Source: Cloacibacillus sp. (GTDB lineage: Bacteria > Synergistota > Synergistia > Synergistales > Synergistaceae). From it: a stretch of DNA of 50,549 nucleotides. Location: positions 1 through 50,549 of the forward strand of contig JAVVPF010000023.1 of NCBI GenBank assembly GCA_036655895.1. The letters run 5' to 3'. The notes under the pieces were generated by a model that saw only the letters and a program-made list of their open reading frames with translations, made no database searches and was not told where the DNA came from. A program made the position numbers and the translations under genes. Shown here one piece after another: positions 3,498 to 40,276 of the stretch; the stretch's first letter is position 1, and every line of letters starts with the position of its first letter.

Positions 3498-4688
3498 ATG
3501 ACAGAGAAGATCCGCACCGACTTTTTAGGAATAGAGATGCCAAATCCGTTTATGCTGGCTTCCGCCCCGCCTTCGAGGAACAGAGAGATGATCGACAGGG
3601 CCTTTCGCGCCGGATGGGGAGGCGCCGTCATAAAGACGCTGACGCAGTACACGGGGACGGAAGGCTGCGAAGTGCGCAACGTCTCCCCGCGCATCCACAC
3701 GGTGAGGGGGCCGGGCGGCATCGCCGGCTTCACCAATATTGAGCTTACATCGCAGCAGACGAACGAAGAATCCTGCGACGACATCCAGAAACTGAAAAAA
3801 AGCTGGCCCGACAGAGCGGTGATAGCAAGCATCCTCTATGGACACAGCCCGATAAAAGAGTGCTGGCAGCGCGCCGCCGCGGACTGCGAAGCCGCAGGTG
3901 CTGACGCGCTTGAACTTAATTTCTCGTGCCCGCACGGCTGCAGCGAGATAGGAAGCGGCATTTCCATCGGTGAAAACCCCGCTCAGATAAAAGAACTGAT
4001 AGGCTGGGTGAAGGCGGCCTCAAAGCTGCCCGTCATAGTGAAGCTGCCTTCGATGTCCGACATCGTACTGGGCGCCTCCGTCTCCAAGCAGGAGGGAGCT
4101 GACGCCATCTGCGCCATCAACACGATAAGCTCCATGCCCTACATCGACATCGAAAGCGCGCACCCCGTCTTCAACGTGGGCGGCGTGGGAGTGGCGGGCG
4201 GCATGTCCGGACGCATCATCCGGCCGATAGCGCTTCGCAGCGTGATGGAGATAGCGCGCAGCGTCTCGATCCCTATCTCGGCAAGCGGCGGCGTATACGG
4301 CTGGCGCGACGCCGTGGAGTTCATCCTCGTGGGCGCCTCCACGCTGCAAATATGCTCCGCCGTAATGGAGCACGGCTACGGCATCATAAACGACCTCTGC
4401 TGCGGACTTTCAGGATACATGGCGCGCAAAAACTACAAGAGCGTCGCCGACTTCTGCGGCAAAGCGCTTGAACATGTCGCGCCCCACAGCGCGCTTGACA
4501 GAGACAACAGGTTCGTCCCAAAATGGGACTCCTACAACTGCCTGCGCTGCGGCAAGTGCGTCATAAGCTGCCGCGACGGCGGCTATCAGGCGATAACGAT
4601 GCAGGACAGAAACATATTGATAGACACGCAGAAATGCGACGGCTGCGGCCTCTGCCGCGGCATCTGCCCCGAACACTGCATAAACTAA
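3498..4688 (+). CDS. preA: Dihydropyrimidine dehydrogenase-like flavoprotein with C-terminal ferredoxin domain (PreA)
   Basis: A protein of 396 residues with an FMN-binding TIM barrel of the dihydroorotate/dihydropyrimidine dehydrogenase family (NFSCPHGC near 141-148, SASGGV near 263) followed by a two-cluster 4Fe-4S ferredoxin domain (CLRCGKCVISC and CDGCGLCRGICPEHC near the end). PreA normally works with PreT to reduce uracil or thymine with NADH, but no preT neighbour is present. By eye, the loop that carries the catalytic Cys in mammalian enzyme (GLACGQ) reads GISIGE at 154-159, so the substrate is uncertain. A strong terminator follows, so it is probably monocistronic. Confidence 0.85.
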   Translation: MTEKIRTDFLGIEMPNPFMLASAPPSRNREMIDRAFRAGWGGAVIKTLTQYTGTEGCEVRNVSPRIHTVRGPGGIAGFTNIELTSQQTNEESCDDIQKLKKSWPDRAVIASILYGHSPIKECWQRAAADCEAAGADALELNFSCPHGCSEIGSGISIGENPAQIKELIGWVKAASKLPVIVKLPSMSDIVLGASVSKQEGADAICAINTISSMPYIDIESAHPVFNVGGVGVAGGMSGRIIRPIALRSVMEIARSVSIPISASGGVYGWRDAVEFILVGASTLQICSAVMEHGYGIINDLCCGLSGYMARKNYKSVADFCGKALEHVAPHSALDRDNRFVPKWDSYNCLRCGKCVISCRDGGYQAITMQDRNILIDTQKCDGCGLCRGICPEHCIN

Positions 4689-4713
4689 AAAGCGCAAAAA
4701 AACAACAGACAGC

Positions 4714-4742
4714 AGCGCCCCCGGCAAAAGTCCGGGGGCGCT
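4714..4742 (+). terminator. Intrinsic terminator after preA
   Basis: AGCGCCCCCGG (4714-4724) and CCGGGGGCGCT (4732-4742) form a perfect 11-base stem with a 7-base loop, followed by TT. Confidence 0.75.
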
Positions 4743-4828
4743 TTGACGCGCGCATACAAAATTACGTACTTAAAAAATTCCAGAGCGGATGCGACAGCAA
4801 GAAGATAAAGGTGGAAAATCTCGATGGT

Positions 4829-4871
4829 TTGTGTCATAATAATCGCAAAATATATTGTTTAAATTATGACA
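4829..4871 (+). promoter_or_regulatory. Promoter with embedded palindromic operator for the XRE/ImmA/PIN cassette
   Basis: TTGTGT (4829-4834), a 16-base spacer and TATATT (4851-4856) form a likely promoter. Inverted 9-base half-sites TGTCATAAT (4832-4840) and ATTATGACA (4863-4871) flank the -10 box, with centres 31 bases apart, three helical turns. This fits autorepression by the XRE protein encoded just downstream. Confidence 0.5.
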
Positions 4872-4909
4872 AAAGATATAAAAATAAAAAATAAAGGGGC
4901 GTGGTGAAT

Positions 4910-5257
4910 ATGACGAGCTGCAAAAACGTTGGTAATAATCTTAAACGGCTCCGGGAGGCCTCCGGGTTCAGCCAGCGGAGCATCGCGGATTTTTTAAAAG
5001 TGGATCAAAGCCTTGTAAGCAAGATAGAAAAGGGCGAGCGCGGCATCTCCGCTGTTATGCTAGACGAGCTTGCGTCGCTTTTTGGCGTGTCGGCGGCTGC
5101 CGTGGCAAATGACTCGGCTGGAAGGCCGCTTGCCTGCGCCTTCCGATGCAGCGACCTCTCTCGCGATGAGATGCGGGCTGTCTGCGCCGTCAATAAGATA
5201 GCTCTCAACTTGGAATTTCTGAGCGGCCTGCTGAAGGACGAGGCACATGGCAGATAA
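4910..5257 (+). CDS. XRE-family helix-turn-helix regulator, first gene of a three-gene cassette
   Basis: Small cytoplasmic DNA-binding protein of about 115 residues. The N-terminal half is a classic five-helix XRE/lambda-repressor domain (NNLKRLREASGFSQRSIADF, then LVSKIEKGERGIS). The C-terminal half is short and helical and may contact the peptidase encoded next. ATG 4910 is preferred over GTG 4901 because AGGGG at 4895-4899 then has a 10-base spacing. The gene overlaps the ImmA/IrrE gene by 11 bases, so translation is likely coupled. It probably represses the cassette through the palindrome at 4832-4871. Confidence 0.85.
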   Translation: MTSCKNVGNNLKRLREASGFSQRSIADFLKVDQSLVSKIEKGERGISAVMLDELASLFGVSAAAVANDSAGRPLACAFRCSDLSRDEMRAVCAVNKIALNLEFLSGLLKDEAHGR

Positions 5258-6005
5258 AGCTGATTTGATGACCAAAGCGATGCAGTACAGAAAGGAACTG
5301 GGCGCGGAGAGCGGTTCGCCTGTAGATGTTTTTTCTCTGGCACAGAATATTGAAGGGCTGACGCTGGTTTATTATCCTATGGGCGACAAGCTCAGCGGCA
5401 TGTGCGTCAGGACAGAAGACGGAAACTGCGTGATAGCCGTGAACTCCGGCATGTCATTAGGCCGTCAGCGGTTTTCACTGGCGCATGAATTTTATCATAT
5501 GCGTTTTGACGACAATATGACCTCTATCTGTGGAAAAAAAATCGGCTGTGGAAATGACATCGAGAAGGAGGCGGATATATTTGCCTCGTATTTTCTTATG
5601 CCCGCCGCCGAGCTTGAAAGTCGCGCCGCACGTTTTGCGGCAGTCCATGAAGACGGCAAGCTCTCGCTTGATGACGTCATCCTGCTTGAACAATATTTTG
5701 GCGTCAGCCATCAGGCCGCTGTTATCCGCCTGAAGGAGAGCCGCTGTATGGAGCGTTCCCGTGTGGAGGAATTTTTAAAAAGCAGCGTTCGAGGCAGAGC
5801 TGAAATGATGGGCTGTGCTACGGCGCTCTATCGTCCCCTTCCGCCAGATAAACAGTACATGACCTACGGCAGCTATATCAAACAGGCGGAACTGGCTTTG
5901 CAGAAGGGGTTGATAGCCGCCGGAAAATATGAGGAACTGCTTCTTTGTGCATTCCGTTCAGATTTAGTCTACGGAGGAGACGAGGAGGCGGAAATAATTG
6001 ACTGA
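5247..6005 (+). CDS. ImmA/IrrE-family zinc metallopeptidase
   Basis: A protein of 252 residues of the M78 (DUF955) family. The zinc motif HEFYH (residues 80-84, within RFSLAHEFYHMRF) and a third ligand in the EKEAD segment (about residue 108) are both present, so the peptidase is predicted active. Members cleave partner XRE repressors in response to stress or act as part of toxin-antitoxin-like modules. Here it follows such a repressor with an 11-base overlap and overlaps the PIN gene by 8 bases, so all three are probably made together. The last 80 residues are family-unassigned helical sequence. Confidence 0.85.
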   Translation: MADKADLMTKAMQYRKELGAESGSPVDVFSLAQNIEGLTLVYYPMGDKLSGMCVRTEDGNCVIAVNSGMSLGRQRFSLAHEFYHMRFDDNMTSICGKKIGCGNDIEKEADIFASYFLMPAAELESRAARFAAVHEDGKLSLDDVILLEQYFGVSHQAAVIRLKESRCMERSRVEEFLKSSVRGRAEMMGCATALYRPLPPDKQYMTYGSYIKQAELALQKGLIAAGKYEELLLCAFRSDLVYGGDEEAEIID

Positions 6006-6549
6006 GCCGCTGTTTTTCGATACGGACTGCATTTCTGCGTTTCTTTGGGTCGACGGCGAAAGCATTGTTGCGAGGCTCTACCCCGGCAGGATAATTATCC
6101 CCGAGCAGGTTTATAAGGAACTTTCACATCCTGGGCTTAATCACATTAAAGGGCTCAAGTCACAGATAGACGTTCTTGTCATGGACAAGCAGGCGCAAGT
6201 GCGGTCGATCATAGTAGGTGCCGCGGCCTATGAAATTTATTACAAACTTACAACGATTCCCGACGCGGGGCATAAAATCATAGGCGCCGGCGAAGCTGCG
6301 GCGATAGCTATGGCAAAGGAACAGGATGGGATCCTGGCGAGCAACAATTTGAGGGATATACTGGATTATGTAAAAGCGTATGGCCTGGTTCACGTTACGA
6401 CGGCGGATATCCTAAAACAGGCAATGGACGCTGGCCTGATAGACGAAAACCAGGGCAACGCCATTTGGCAAAAAATGCTGGCCAGAAGACGGCGGCTTGG
6501 TTATGACAGCTTTTCAGATTTTCTTGCCGCCAGCCGCGGGCGCTCTTAG
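5998..6549 (+). CDS. PIN-domain putative ribonuclease, third gene of the cassette
   Basis: A protein of 183 residues starting at TTG 5998, after the purine-rich GGAGGAGACGAGGAGG within the preceding gene. The PIN fold is suggested by FFDTDCIS at the N-terminus (Asp8, Asp10), Glu41 in VYKELSH, and Glu99 in GAGEAAAIAMAKEQDGILASNN. The position usually held by the next acidic pair reads NNLRD, so Asn replaces Asp while Asp120 follows. Such proteins are metal-dependent RNases, often toxins, and the pairing with XRE plus M78 peptidase is a known toxin-antitoxin-like theme. It ends four bases inside the convergent LysR gene. Confidence 0.7.
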   Translation: MTEPLFFDTDCISAFLWVDGESIVARLYPGRIIIPEQVYKELSHPGLNHIKGLKSQIDVLVMDKQAQVRSIIVGAAAYEIYYKLTTIPDAGHKIIGAGEAAAIAMAKEQDGILASNNLRDILDYVKAYGLVHVTTADILKQAMDAGLIDENQGNAIWQKMLARRRRLGYDSFSDFLAASRGRS

Positions 6550-7472
6550 GCTGGGGCTACTTCCCCTATCTCCGCTTTTAGTTTTTTTATGAAGCTGTCG
6601 TCCTCGTTGGTGAAGGTGTAGTTGCTGCGCCAGATGAGGATGTCGTGGTATTTGTTGTCGGCGTCGCCGCAGCGTTTTTGGACGAGGCCGTGCAGAGCAA
6701 GCGTCGCTTCCGGCATTGGGGAGACCCAGATGTAGGAGGAGGGCAGCGCGCGCAGCAGTTCAAACTGGATGCCGCGTTCGTAGACGGCTATTTTTTTCTT
6801 TTTTTCGTGTGTCTGCGCAAGAAGCCGCGCCTCTGAGACGGGCATTGCGGGCACGGAGTTGTCGTCGTGCACTATTTCTGTGTAGTGGCGCAGGCCGGAG
6901 TAGGTCACTTCCGGCGCCATGGCGAGCGGGTGGCGCTTTGACATGAGCGCCATGTATTCAAATTCCCAGAGCCGCTCGGACTTCAGGCTGCGCTCGTGTA
7001 TCGCGGACAGGAAATATTTTTCATGTATTATCTGGCAGCGCACGATGCCCATGTCGCTTCTGCCTTCGCTTACGTCTTTTATCACCTGCATGGGGTTTGT
7101 TTCGCAGTATCTTAAGTCAAGCCCCTCCGCGTCGTCGAGGAGGGCTGCGAATTTCGCGAAGGCGGCCGCCGCGTAGCTTGCGCGGGGCAGCGAGATGCTG
7201 AAGCTGCGCGCGCCGGAGGGTTTGTAGAGCGACTCCAGCTCGTCTATCTGCGCCAAGATGTTGCGCGCGTATTCCAGGAAGCGCTCGCCCTGCGGAGTGG
7301 GGGCGACGCCCTTTGTGGTGCGGTTGAAGATGGTGATGTTCATGTCCTCTTCAAGCTCGCGGATTGCTTTTGAGAGGTGCGGCTGGCCCATGTAGAGGTT
7401 TTCCGCGGCGCGCGATATAGAACCGGTGCGCTCCACCTCTACCGCATATCTGAGATGCTGGATGTTGTTCAT
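6546..7472 (-). CDS. LysR-family transcriptional regulator
   Basis: A regulator of 308 residues. The N-terminal 60 residues form the LysR winged helix (AVEVERTGSISRAAENLYMGQPHLSKAIRELE in short segments), followed by a substrate-sensing domain beginning near residue 90 (ISLPRASYAAAAFAKF). It is clearly paralogous to the LysR at 39374-40276, sharing the PRASY segment and a YERG-Q-F...WVSP-P motif. The target is unknown. The 3' end overlaps the PIN gene on the other strand by four bases. Its start at 7472 is supported by the conserved N-terminal pattern. Confidence 0.9.
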   Translation of the reverse strand: MNNIQHLRYAVEVERTGSISRAAENLYMGQPHLSKAIRELEEDMNITIFNRTTKGVAPTPQGERFLEYARNILAQIDELESLYKPSGARSFSISLPRASYAAAAFAKFAALLDDAEGLDLRYCETNPMQVIKDVSEGRSDMGIVRCQIIHEKYFLSAIHERSLKSERLWEFEYMALMSKRHPLAMAPEVTYSGLRHYTEIVHDDNSVPAMPVSEARLLAQTHEKKKKIAVYERGIQFELLRALPSSYIWVSPMPEATLALHGLVQKRCGDADNKYHDILIWRSNYTFTNEDDSFIKKLKAEIGEVAPA

Positions 7473-7541
7473 TTTATACTTCCTCCCGCCGCCCGTTTCG
7501 TTGTCTTCGTTGTATGCCTATGATAACAGATAATGCAGAAA

Positions 7542-7563: not shown

Positions 7564-7638
7564 CTCTTCGTATTCCCAATTATCGCGTCTGTTTGTTATA
7601 CGCGCGGAACATTTTGCGCGGCGCGAGTTCAGTTATTT

Positions 7639-8187
7639 TTAGTCTTTGAATATGGGCAGCTTTTCAAGGTAGACTAGGTCATGTCCGTCGTAGCCGCCCT
7701 CTTCAAGCAGCGCCGCCACCTTTGTGACGACGGTGCAGCCGGTGCGCGCAAGCAGCGATTCAAGCGCGAGCAGCGAGCCGCCGGTGGAGACGACGTCGTC
7801 CACTACGCAGACGCGTTTGCCGGCGAGCCGTTTTGCGTCGGCTCCGTCTATTACGGTCATCTGCGTGCCGGCGGTGGTGATGGACTTGACCTCTGAGGTG
7901 AGAGGCTCTTCCATGTAGCTTTTGACGGATTTGCGCGCCACGATGTAGTCTACGCCAAGGCGCACCGCGATGGCGTGCGTGAGCGGTATGCCCTTCGCCT
8001 CGGGGCAGACGAGGAGGTCTACCGCACCGAGTGTTTTAAGTTTTGCAGCAAGCGCGTCTGCGCATTTTTCAACGAGCGTCGTGTCTCCAAGCATGACGAA
8101 CGAGGCGATGGAAAGGCCGGGCGCTATGCGCACCTTAGGCAGCGGGCGCGTGATGCCGCAGATTTTCAGGTCGTAAAATTCTTTCAT
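7639..8187 (-). CDS. Purine/pyrimidine phosphoribosyltransferase (adenine phosphoribosyltransferase-like)
   Basis: A protein of 182 residues with a type I PRTase fold. The PRPP-binding motif is VCVVDDVVSTGGS (near 126-138), preceded by VCPEAKGIPLTHAIA. It should transfer phosphoribose to a free nucleobase in the cytoplasm. It lies 12 bases behind the NCS2 nucleobase permease gene with its own AAGGAG site, so uptake and salvage of the same base are probably coupled. The exact base (adenine, xanthine or other) cannot be told from the sequence. Confidence 0.85.
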   Translation of the reverse strand: MKEFYDLKICGITRPLPKVRIAPGLSIASFVMLGDTTLVEKCADALAAKLKTLGAVDLLVCPEAKGIPLTHAIAVRLGVDYIVARKSVKSYMEEPLTSEVKSITTAGTQMTVIDGADAKRLAGKRVCVVDDVVSTGGSLLALESLLARTGCTVVTKVAALLEEGGYDGHDLVYLEKLPIFKD

Positions 8188-39373: not shown

Positions 39374-40276
39374 TTACAGAGCCAGCAAAAAGAGTTTGTC
39401 CAGCTCGGAAAGATAGTAGTCCTCGCGGTATATCAAAACGTCCTGATACTCCTTCTCGTTGTCCGCGCATTCTCTTTGCGCCAGATTATAACGTTCAAGC
39501 AGATGCTTTGGAATGGGGGAGACCCACATAAAGGTTTCCTTATTATTGGCCAGCAGGTCAAACTGGCTGCCCCGCTCAAAGACAAAGATGCGGCGCTTCA
39601 CAGTCTCCGGCAGTTCTTCCCTTTTGATGGCCGCAAGCGCCAGGGAGGGGACAAAGGGGTCTGCGTGGGCTATCTCAATAAAAGAATCCAGGTCGGAGAG
39701 GCGTATCTGCTTTTGGGAGGCGAGCGCGCCCTCGCGGTGCGTGATGAGAACATACCGGAAATCTTTTACCAGCCTGTGCGCCAGCCTTTTTTCCTCAAAC
39801 ATGCTGTTGAAATAGGAGCTGAATTTCTTTGCGTAACGGATTATCCCGAGATTATATTCGGAGGAGAGCACATTGCTTATGGTATGTGATGAATTTGTTT
39901 CTTTATAATAGAACTCAGCGGCGCCGTCTGTCATCTTCAAAGAGAAACGGGCGAAGGCGTTTGCGATATAGCTTGCCCTCGGCACACAAATAGAAAATAT
40001 CTGTTTTGCCTCCATCTTGGTTTTATTTCTGTACATGTGCTCGATTTCTTCTATCTGCCCGATGATTTTTTTTGCGTAGCCCAGAAACTCTTCGCCCTCC
40101 GGCGTCAATGTCATGCCTTTGAAGGTGCGGTTGAAGAGCGTGATGCCCAGCTCAGATTCCAGTTCCTTAATGGAACGGCTCAAATTTGGCTGCGCAATGA
40201 GCAGCGACTGGGCCGCTTTGCTTATAGAGCCGCTCTTTGCCACCTCGATGATATAGGTCAAGCTTACTAAATTCAT
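39374..40276 (-). CDS. LysR-family transcriptional regulator
   Basis: A regulator of 300 residues with an N-terminal winged helix (VAKSGSISKAAQSLLIAQ, then NLSRSIKELESELGITLFNR) and a substrate-binding domain that begins ICVPRASYIANAFARF. It is a clear paralogue of the LysR at 6546-7472. A GGGGCG stretch upstream is only a weak ribosome site. The target is unknown. It faces away from the SGNH hydrolase and glycine-cleavage genes, so control of either is possible only by inference. Confidence 0.9.
   Translation of the reverse strand: MNLVSLTYIIEVAKSGSISKAAQSLLIAQPNLSRSIKELESELGITLFNRTFKGMTLTPEGEEFLGYAKKIIGQIEEIEHMYRNKTKMEAKQIFSICVPRASYIANAFARFSLKMTDGAAEFYYKETNSSHTISNVLSSEYNLGIIRYAKKFSSYFNSMFEEKRLAHRLVKDFRYVLITHREGALASQKQIRLSDLDSFIEIAHADPFVPSLALAAIKREELPETVKRRIFVFERGSQFDLLANNKETFMWVSPIPKHLLERYNLAQRECADNEKEYQDVLIYREDYYLSELDKLFLLAL

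Follow-up and report, generated by a model that had tools for sequence, protein, structure and literature searches.

Three-component toxin-antitoxin systems composed of an Xre repressor, a COG2856 protein and a PIN or RelE toxin were predicted by Makarova et al. (2009; PMC2701414), and the accessible passages of that study ask for their validation. These passages place the three kinds of protein in one operon and link a protease that cleaves the Xre repressor to the PIN/RelE toxin. XRE-COG2856 was still termed uncharacterised in the relevant passage of a 2019 paper (PMC6929052), and no experimental test of the Xre-COG2856-PIN three-component system was found in the literature searched. Cleavage of a partner protein has been described for related peptidases. 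According to the accessible parts of the respective reports, ssDNA activates CapP, which cleaves CapH (PMC13373217), PprI is activated by ssDNA, for the sensing of which a GAF-like domain is described, and cuts DdrO (PMC10904395), and ImmA cuts ImmR, which leads to the activation of mobile elements (PMC10233336).

The window, i.e. the whole stretch of 50,549 nucleotides of a Cloacibacillus sp. contig analysed here, carries a cassette that appears to belong to the kind predicted in 2009, with Xre, a COG2856/M78 peptidase and PIN in one operon and with PIN toxicity and cleavage as putative activities. The 2009 passages stress fused Xre-COG2856 proteins, whereas the cassette has separate genes. 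An operator, a fixed overlap and a loss pattern, all three found in the cassette family, do not appear in these passages. New here are a twin operator, a fixed 8-base overlap, the tie between ImmA and PIN, lesions that affect PIN only and transfer between phyla. An HTH repressor and an M78 peptidase are shared with CapH-CapP; that pair controls CBASS and other immune operons (BREX, Pycsar), whereas in the cassette family a single small PIN gene accompanies the pair (18/18 loci). VapC toxins have in common with the cassette the PIN fold, the residues D8, E41 and E99 and, in VapC2 of Rickettsia felis, the NN motif, with N117 as the fourth site, but the cassette has no VapB gene and its PIN protein carries a C-terminal extension. 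In RosmerTA (RmrA-RmrT), the ImmA domain is related (match to RmrA, 1.6e-12) and a toxin partner is likewise present in the operon, but the RmrA models of 357-400 positions combine HTH and peptidase in one protein instead of two genes.

Another relative is the candidate PDC-M69 of PADLOC-DB 2.0, which has parts A, B and C. M69A matches the XRE protein in 18/18 rows, in the HTH part only, and M69B matches ImmA in 17/17 rows. M69C gave no match among the window PIN and its 13 relatives, even at E 10, and is matched by diverged PIN proteins only (L120, 1.3e-5; L090, 4.6e-4). Parts A and B are shared, but the PIN protein matches PDC-S70 rather than M69C, and because M69C is unmatched the cassette was filed as a relative and not as a member of PDC-M69, a name that occurs in no paper of the literature searched.

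Three overlapping genes and their products

The genes for XRE, ImmA/IrrE and PIN follow each other on the plus strand, and the coordinates of the open reading frames (4901-5257, 5247-6005 and 5998-6549) bear out the consecutive overlaps of 11 and 8 bases described in the initial annotation. The coding features are:

4910-5257, plus strand: XRE-family repressor, 115 aa, start ATG 4910 (GTG 4901 possible), Pfam HTH_3 7.8e-12
5247-6005, plus strand: ImmA/IrrE (M78) zinc peptidase, 252 aa, Pfam Peptidase_M78 4.2e-16
5484-5498, plus strand: HEFYH zinc-binding motif (H80, E81, H84), invariant in 18/18 rows
5562-5564, plus strand: third zinc ligand E106, invariant in 18/18 rows
5739-6002, plus strand: C-terminal helical ImmA segment, subtype marker (profile A7)
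5998-6005, plus strand: 8-base ImmA-PIN overlap, TTGACTGA, of equal length in 23/25 loci
5998-6549, plus strand: PIN-fold protein, 183 aa, predicted RNase toxin, TTG start (model and PADLOC PDC-S70, 9e-7)
6019-6021, plus strand: D8 codon, first PIN acidic residue, invariant in 14/14 rows
6118-6120, plus strand: E41 codon, invariant in 14/14 rows
6292-6294, plus strand: E99 codon, invariant in 14/14 rows
6343-6348, plus strand: N116-N117 codons, NN in 14/14 rows

For the XRE gene, the ATG at 4910 is preferred over the GTG at 4901, since this is where the alignment with homologues begins and it is preceded, at a distance of about 10 bases, by an AGGGG sequence. Among the PADLOC models the XRE protein matches capH (1.3e-8) and PDC-M69A (4.1e-7), and ImmA matches capP (1.9e-24) and, over residues 28-232, PDC-M69B (2.8e-19). 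The zinc ligands of the peptidase, said earlier to be intact, are invariant in all 18 ImmA rows (H80-E81-xx-H84 and E106). In the structure comparison the ImmA model (pLDDT 88.2) is closest to CapP 7t5t (Z 17.1, rmsd 2.8, 166 aligned), followed by PprI/IrrE 8sln (Z 12.9, rmsd 3.3, 156 aligned). The CapP match covers model residues 2-196 and ends at 196. The ImmA segment at the location of the ssDNA-sensing GAF-like domain of PprI is unaligned, so that the trigger may differ.

Searches with the PIN protein gave no relevant family match in Pfam, NCBIfam or PHROG. PDC-S70, a PADLOC candidate described as a PIN nuclease in the accessible part of PMC12988326, is matched weakly by the window protein (9e-7) and by 13/14 relatives. 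A structure model obtained from 13 sequences (pLDDT 89.5, pTM 0.85) retrieved VapC toxins in Foldseek (best E 1.1e-4, VapC 5ecw), and the best VIA-align match was VapC 6ifc (Z 12.3, rmsd 3.2, 123 aligned, residues 2-136), beyond which the C-terminal extension comprises residues 137-183 approximately. Structure prediction, proposed at the outset as a check of the fold, could thus identify a VapC-like PIN fold despite the lack of a relevant Pfam match.

The residues D8, D10, E41, E99, S115, N116 and N117 are invariant in 14/14 rows. The statement that PIN keeps acidic residues is correct as to their retention, but there are four invariant acidic positions (D8, D10, E41, E99) and not three. A special role of NN as a feature of this PIN family could not be upheld. 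In a profile search of solved structures the best match, a weak one (E 0.074), was 3zvk, VapC2 of R. felis, whose 'TNN' aligns on the NN of the PIN protein. Three diverged relatives read SSN at the NN site and keep the second N (N117) alone; the diverged and close PIN groups are homologous (hhalign probability 98.9). Because of the 'TNN' of 3zvk and the SSN of the diverged relatives, NN is a variant commonly met at the fourth PIN position, and its interpretation as a mark of a dead or new active site was dropped.

The cassette is preceded by a gene for a dihydroorotate-dehydrogenase-like protein with a 4Fe-4S domain and followed by a convergent LysR gene, the stop codon of which overlaps that of the PIN gene (6546-6549) and leaves no space for a terminator. 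Its G+C content is about 0.51, compared to 0.53-0.61 in most flanking windows, and tRNA genes are absent from the window. Another LysR-type gene (39377-40273, minus strand) is 38% identical to the one adjoining the cassette. At 850-2304 and 2334-2984, both on the minus strand, lie genes for a papain-family protease that also has a lectin-like domain and for a protein with Sel1 repeats.

Recurrence and transfer of the cassette

The trio was surveyed in 185 genomes of the window's phylum and in 391 genomes from the class to which a Clostridia genome belongs. The PIN profile (A1) detected 7/185 and 12/391 genomes, respectively, and the profile of the ImmA C-terminus (A7), used as an independent query, detected 6/185 and 12/391; in all 18 A7-positive genomes the start of a PIN gene is located behind ImmA. 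PIN and the ImmA subtype occur together in 6 of the 185 and 11 of the 391 genomes (Fisher 1.4e-10 and 2e-19, values uncorrected for kinship). The exceptions are G183, which carries a diverged trio (L010), G394, with a PIN fragment without partners in view, and G468, in which ImmA is followed by a PIN gene shortened to 31 codons. Intact trios elsewhere were found in Acetoanaerobium noterae (L003), in G715 (L116) and on the viral contigs L012, L082 and L084. When the A5 profile was run against 335 genomes from the order that includes G185, it returned G185 itself and one new trio, that of G715. Diverged trios are present at L010, in phage L120, on a Hymenobacter plasmid (L117) and in phage L090, where PIN is short. 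The neighbourhood survey suggested for the trio thus established its recurrence in the window's phylum, in Clostridia and on phage contigs. With the PIN fold identified and the trio recurring, neither of the two checks set for refuting the initial interpretation did so. With the PIN protein as query, the phages collection gave zero matches and the plasmids collection one; the viral contigs gave zero matches to a single PIN sequence, but profiles did yield loci.

The overlap between ImmA and PIN is exactly 8 bases in 19/21 loci with ImmA and also in L039, L082, L084 and L116, i.e. in 23/25, the two exceptions being L010 (17 bases) and L013, the PIN start of which was unscored. Its length is kept although the bases differ, as in TTGACTGA, ATGACTGA and ATGATTAA. 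The spacing between XRE and ImmA is variable and ranges from a 17-base overlap to a short gap, some gap values depending on anchor positions. Recurrence of the gene order and of the 8-base overlap in unrelated genomes indicates more than chance.

As judged from the protein sequences, the XRE, ImmA and PIN genes travel together across phyla. Across 13 loci, their pairwise protein distances give correlations of 0.85, 0.79 and 0.84 (Mantel 0/5000 each). In a tree of XRE and ImmA from 20 loci, L006, from the window's family, is sister to the Clostridia locus L020 (100/100), and L008, from the window's order, groups with Clostridia and phage loci (98/99). On the viral contigs L012 and L084 the trio is flanked by a transcription regulator of phrog_36 and an HNH endonuclease of phrog_144, and in L013 it lies few genes ahead of a terminase. 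A clean empty site was not found: in G134 and G135, the relatives in which both of the flanking genes occur, the dehydrogenase and LysR genes are non-adjacent. Two further observations concern the phage contigs. In L013, a putative nucleotidyltransferase-HEPN gene pair (4232-4919) is located directly 3' of the broken PIN gene, with the terminase further on, and this region is a possible cargo site. In L084, a tandem pair of similar HNH-like genes (7073-7489 and 7613-7966) lies behind the phage-borne trio.

A twin operator around the -35 box

The initial annotation had placed the three genes behind one promoter. The region proved right, but the promoter at 4812-4840 given by a mechanical scan was set aside in favour of -35 and -10 boxes placed by comparison across loci:

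4832-4840, plus strand: upstream operator arm TGTCATAAT, part of the inverted repeat GTCATA-N-TATGAC found across loci
4855-4860, plus strand: putative -35 box TTGTTT, a conserved TTG-box between both arms in the aligned upstream regions
4863-4871, plus strand: downstream operator arm ATTATGACA, between -35 and -10
4877-4882, plus strand: putative -10 box TATAAA, aligned with TATAAT/TATACT of other loci

The twin operator (4832-4871) surrounds the -35 box, with the first arm 5' of it. GTCATA and TATGAC with a total span of 37 or 38 bases were found upstream of XRE in 19/20 loci, compared to 0.0035 loci expected from mononucleotide shuffles. The 38-base form is present in L082, L084 and L116 too, which raises the count to 22/23; the sole locus without it is L039 (G468), where PIN is likewise broken. 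From this arrangement we infer autorepression of the promoter by a pair of XRE dimers spaced by about three helical turns. The folding of the leader RNA is unremarkable (z -1.68).

In the Clostridia sample, the strict pattern TTGTCATA-N18-26-TATGACAA matches 17/391 genomes, comprising 9/12 genomes with the trio and 8/379 others (Fisher 9e-12), which marks the operator as specific to trio genomes. Since a reversed control pattern matches about twenty genomes, the 8 matches outside trio genomes are regarded as background; together with one extra site in G469, likewise at background level, they were rejected as candidates for other genes under the operator. Of three viral matches to the pattern, one is the L012 contig and two lack the XRE-ImmA-PIN trio. 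The window contains one operator site. In the diverged trio L010, a different repeat of equal 38-base span is found, which is merely suggestive, as 11/200 shuffles reach or pass it. Upstream of position 3627 in L090, an inverted repeat with 11-base arms and a 45-base span, reached by 0/200 shuffles, lies 5' of the diverged XRE-ImmA-PIN trio; it is perhaps the operator of that trio's own family.

Selective loss of PIN and the proposed module

Lesions were scored in 24 loci of the close family, after L009, whose contig ends inside PIN, and L024, which lacks partners, had been left out of the 26 collected. Re-fetched copies were dropped (L001, L004, L011, L014, L015, L027-L038, L040-L045, L048, L050, L052-L055, L057, L059, L060, L064 and L085-L089). 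All three genes are intact in 16/24 loci (window, L002, L003, L005, L006, L012, L016-L022, L082, L084 and L116), PIN alone is broken in 7/24 (L007, L008, L013, L023, L025, L026 and L039) and all three genes are degraded in one (L083). XRE alone or ImmA alone is broken in none of the 24. A single lesion is common to L025 and L026 (G268 and G444); the six independent lesions are all in PIN, with p 0.0014 under an equal hazard per codon. The contig of L026 starts only at XRE codon 2, and the genome of L008 is a single contig. The PIN lesions of G163 and G469 are frameshifts in draft genomes and thus possible assembly errors. A search with PIN would find loci with intact PIN and broken partners, so the bias in that direction is small. 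Two counterexamples come from outside the close family: the ImmA frame is split and PIN intact in the diverged L117 of the Hymenobacter plasmid, and in L118 (Methanosphaera, archaeal) XRE-ImmA is followed by a non-PIN third gene.

Taken together, the cassette is probably a mobile toxin module triggered by stress or phages, with XRE as its repressor, ImmA as the factor that lifts repression and PIN as the toxic RNase. By binding the two conserved arms on either side of the -35 box, XRE would repress the sole promoter of the operon. The ImmA peptidase would be activated by stress, for which DNA damage or ssDNA from phage growth is the likeliest signal, and, by analogy to CapH-CapP, PprI-DdrO and ImmR-ImmA, would cut XRE and open the promoter. 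Translation of PIN would be coupled to that of ImmA via the 8-base overlap, and the VapC-like fold of the PIN model suggests an RNase that stops growth. As loci lose PIN yet keep XRE and ImmA, and not vice versa, XRE and/or ImmA presumably must also hold basal PIN harmless. A mechanism of repression and proteolysis alone would, on the other hand, not call for a direct antitoxin. The PIN fold, the recurrence of the trio and the PIN-only lesions support the original suggestion of a switchable three-gene module rather than a plain two-gene pair, for which cleavage of the repressor by the peptidase, RNase activity of PIN and defence against phages are predicted properties.

One alternative is a type II toxin-antitoxin system in which the helical C-terminal part of ImmA directly neutralises PIN while XRE merely autoregulates, comparable to the ImmA-domain antitoxin of RosmerTA. 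The ImmA subtype is tied to PIN in 18/18 loci, whereas CapH-CapP, in the accessible text, reportedly serves several effector operons; with the fixed overlap of 8 bases, production of both proteins in equal amounts would be favoured, and the NetFlax study, in the part available, associates an ImmA antitoxin node with PIN-like domains (PMC10440598). The catalytic zinc residues are nevertheless invariant, although a pure antitoxin would have no need of them; this alternative is rather doubtful. Equally tentative is a bifunctional ImmA, the C-terminal helical part of which would keep PIN in check, whereas the zinc peptidase of ImmA would respond to damage or phage by cutting XRE. This possibility draws on the one-to-one tie between the ImmA subtype and PIN and, if true, one event would both free the toxin and open the promoter for more.

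It is improbable that PIN binds nucleic acids as a catalytically dead or housekeeping protein, with the cassette acting as a regulator without toxin: the position N116-N117 has no acidic residue and a Pfam match is lacking, but all 14 rows keep D8, D10, E41 and E99, a known VapC toxin likewise has NN there, and the patchy distribution (7/185 and 12/391) and the selective loss are unlike a housekeeping gene. The original two-gene idea with ImmA as the toxin, XRE as the antitoxin and PIN as a passenger, which goes back to the toxin-antitoxin prediction for the XRE-COG2856 pair in the accessible part of PMC2701414, is very improbable and was dropped, since ImmA-only lesions were found in 0/24 loci versus 7 PIN-only lesions, and ImmA of S. 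mutans had a minor growth effect only in E. coli according to the available passage of PMC10233336.

The cassette family represents a clean and compact test case with three genes, one conserved operator and invariant catalytic residues in two enzymes. It also offers PIN-null alleles that arose naturally, is carried by phages as well as by bacteria from different phyla, and would reveal whether the role of M78 proteases ends with the de-repression of effectors or includes their direct restraint. On the plasmid locus L118 (2143-3518), the place of PIN behind a related XRE-ImmA pair is taken by a 97-residue protein without Pfam match, which is possibly another effector.
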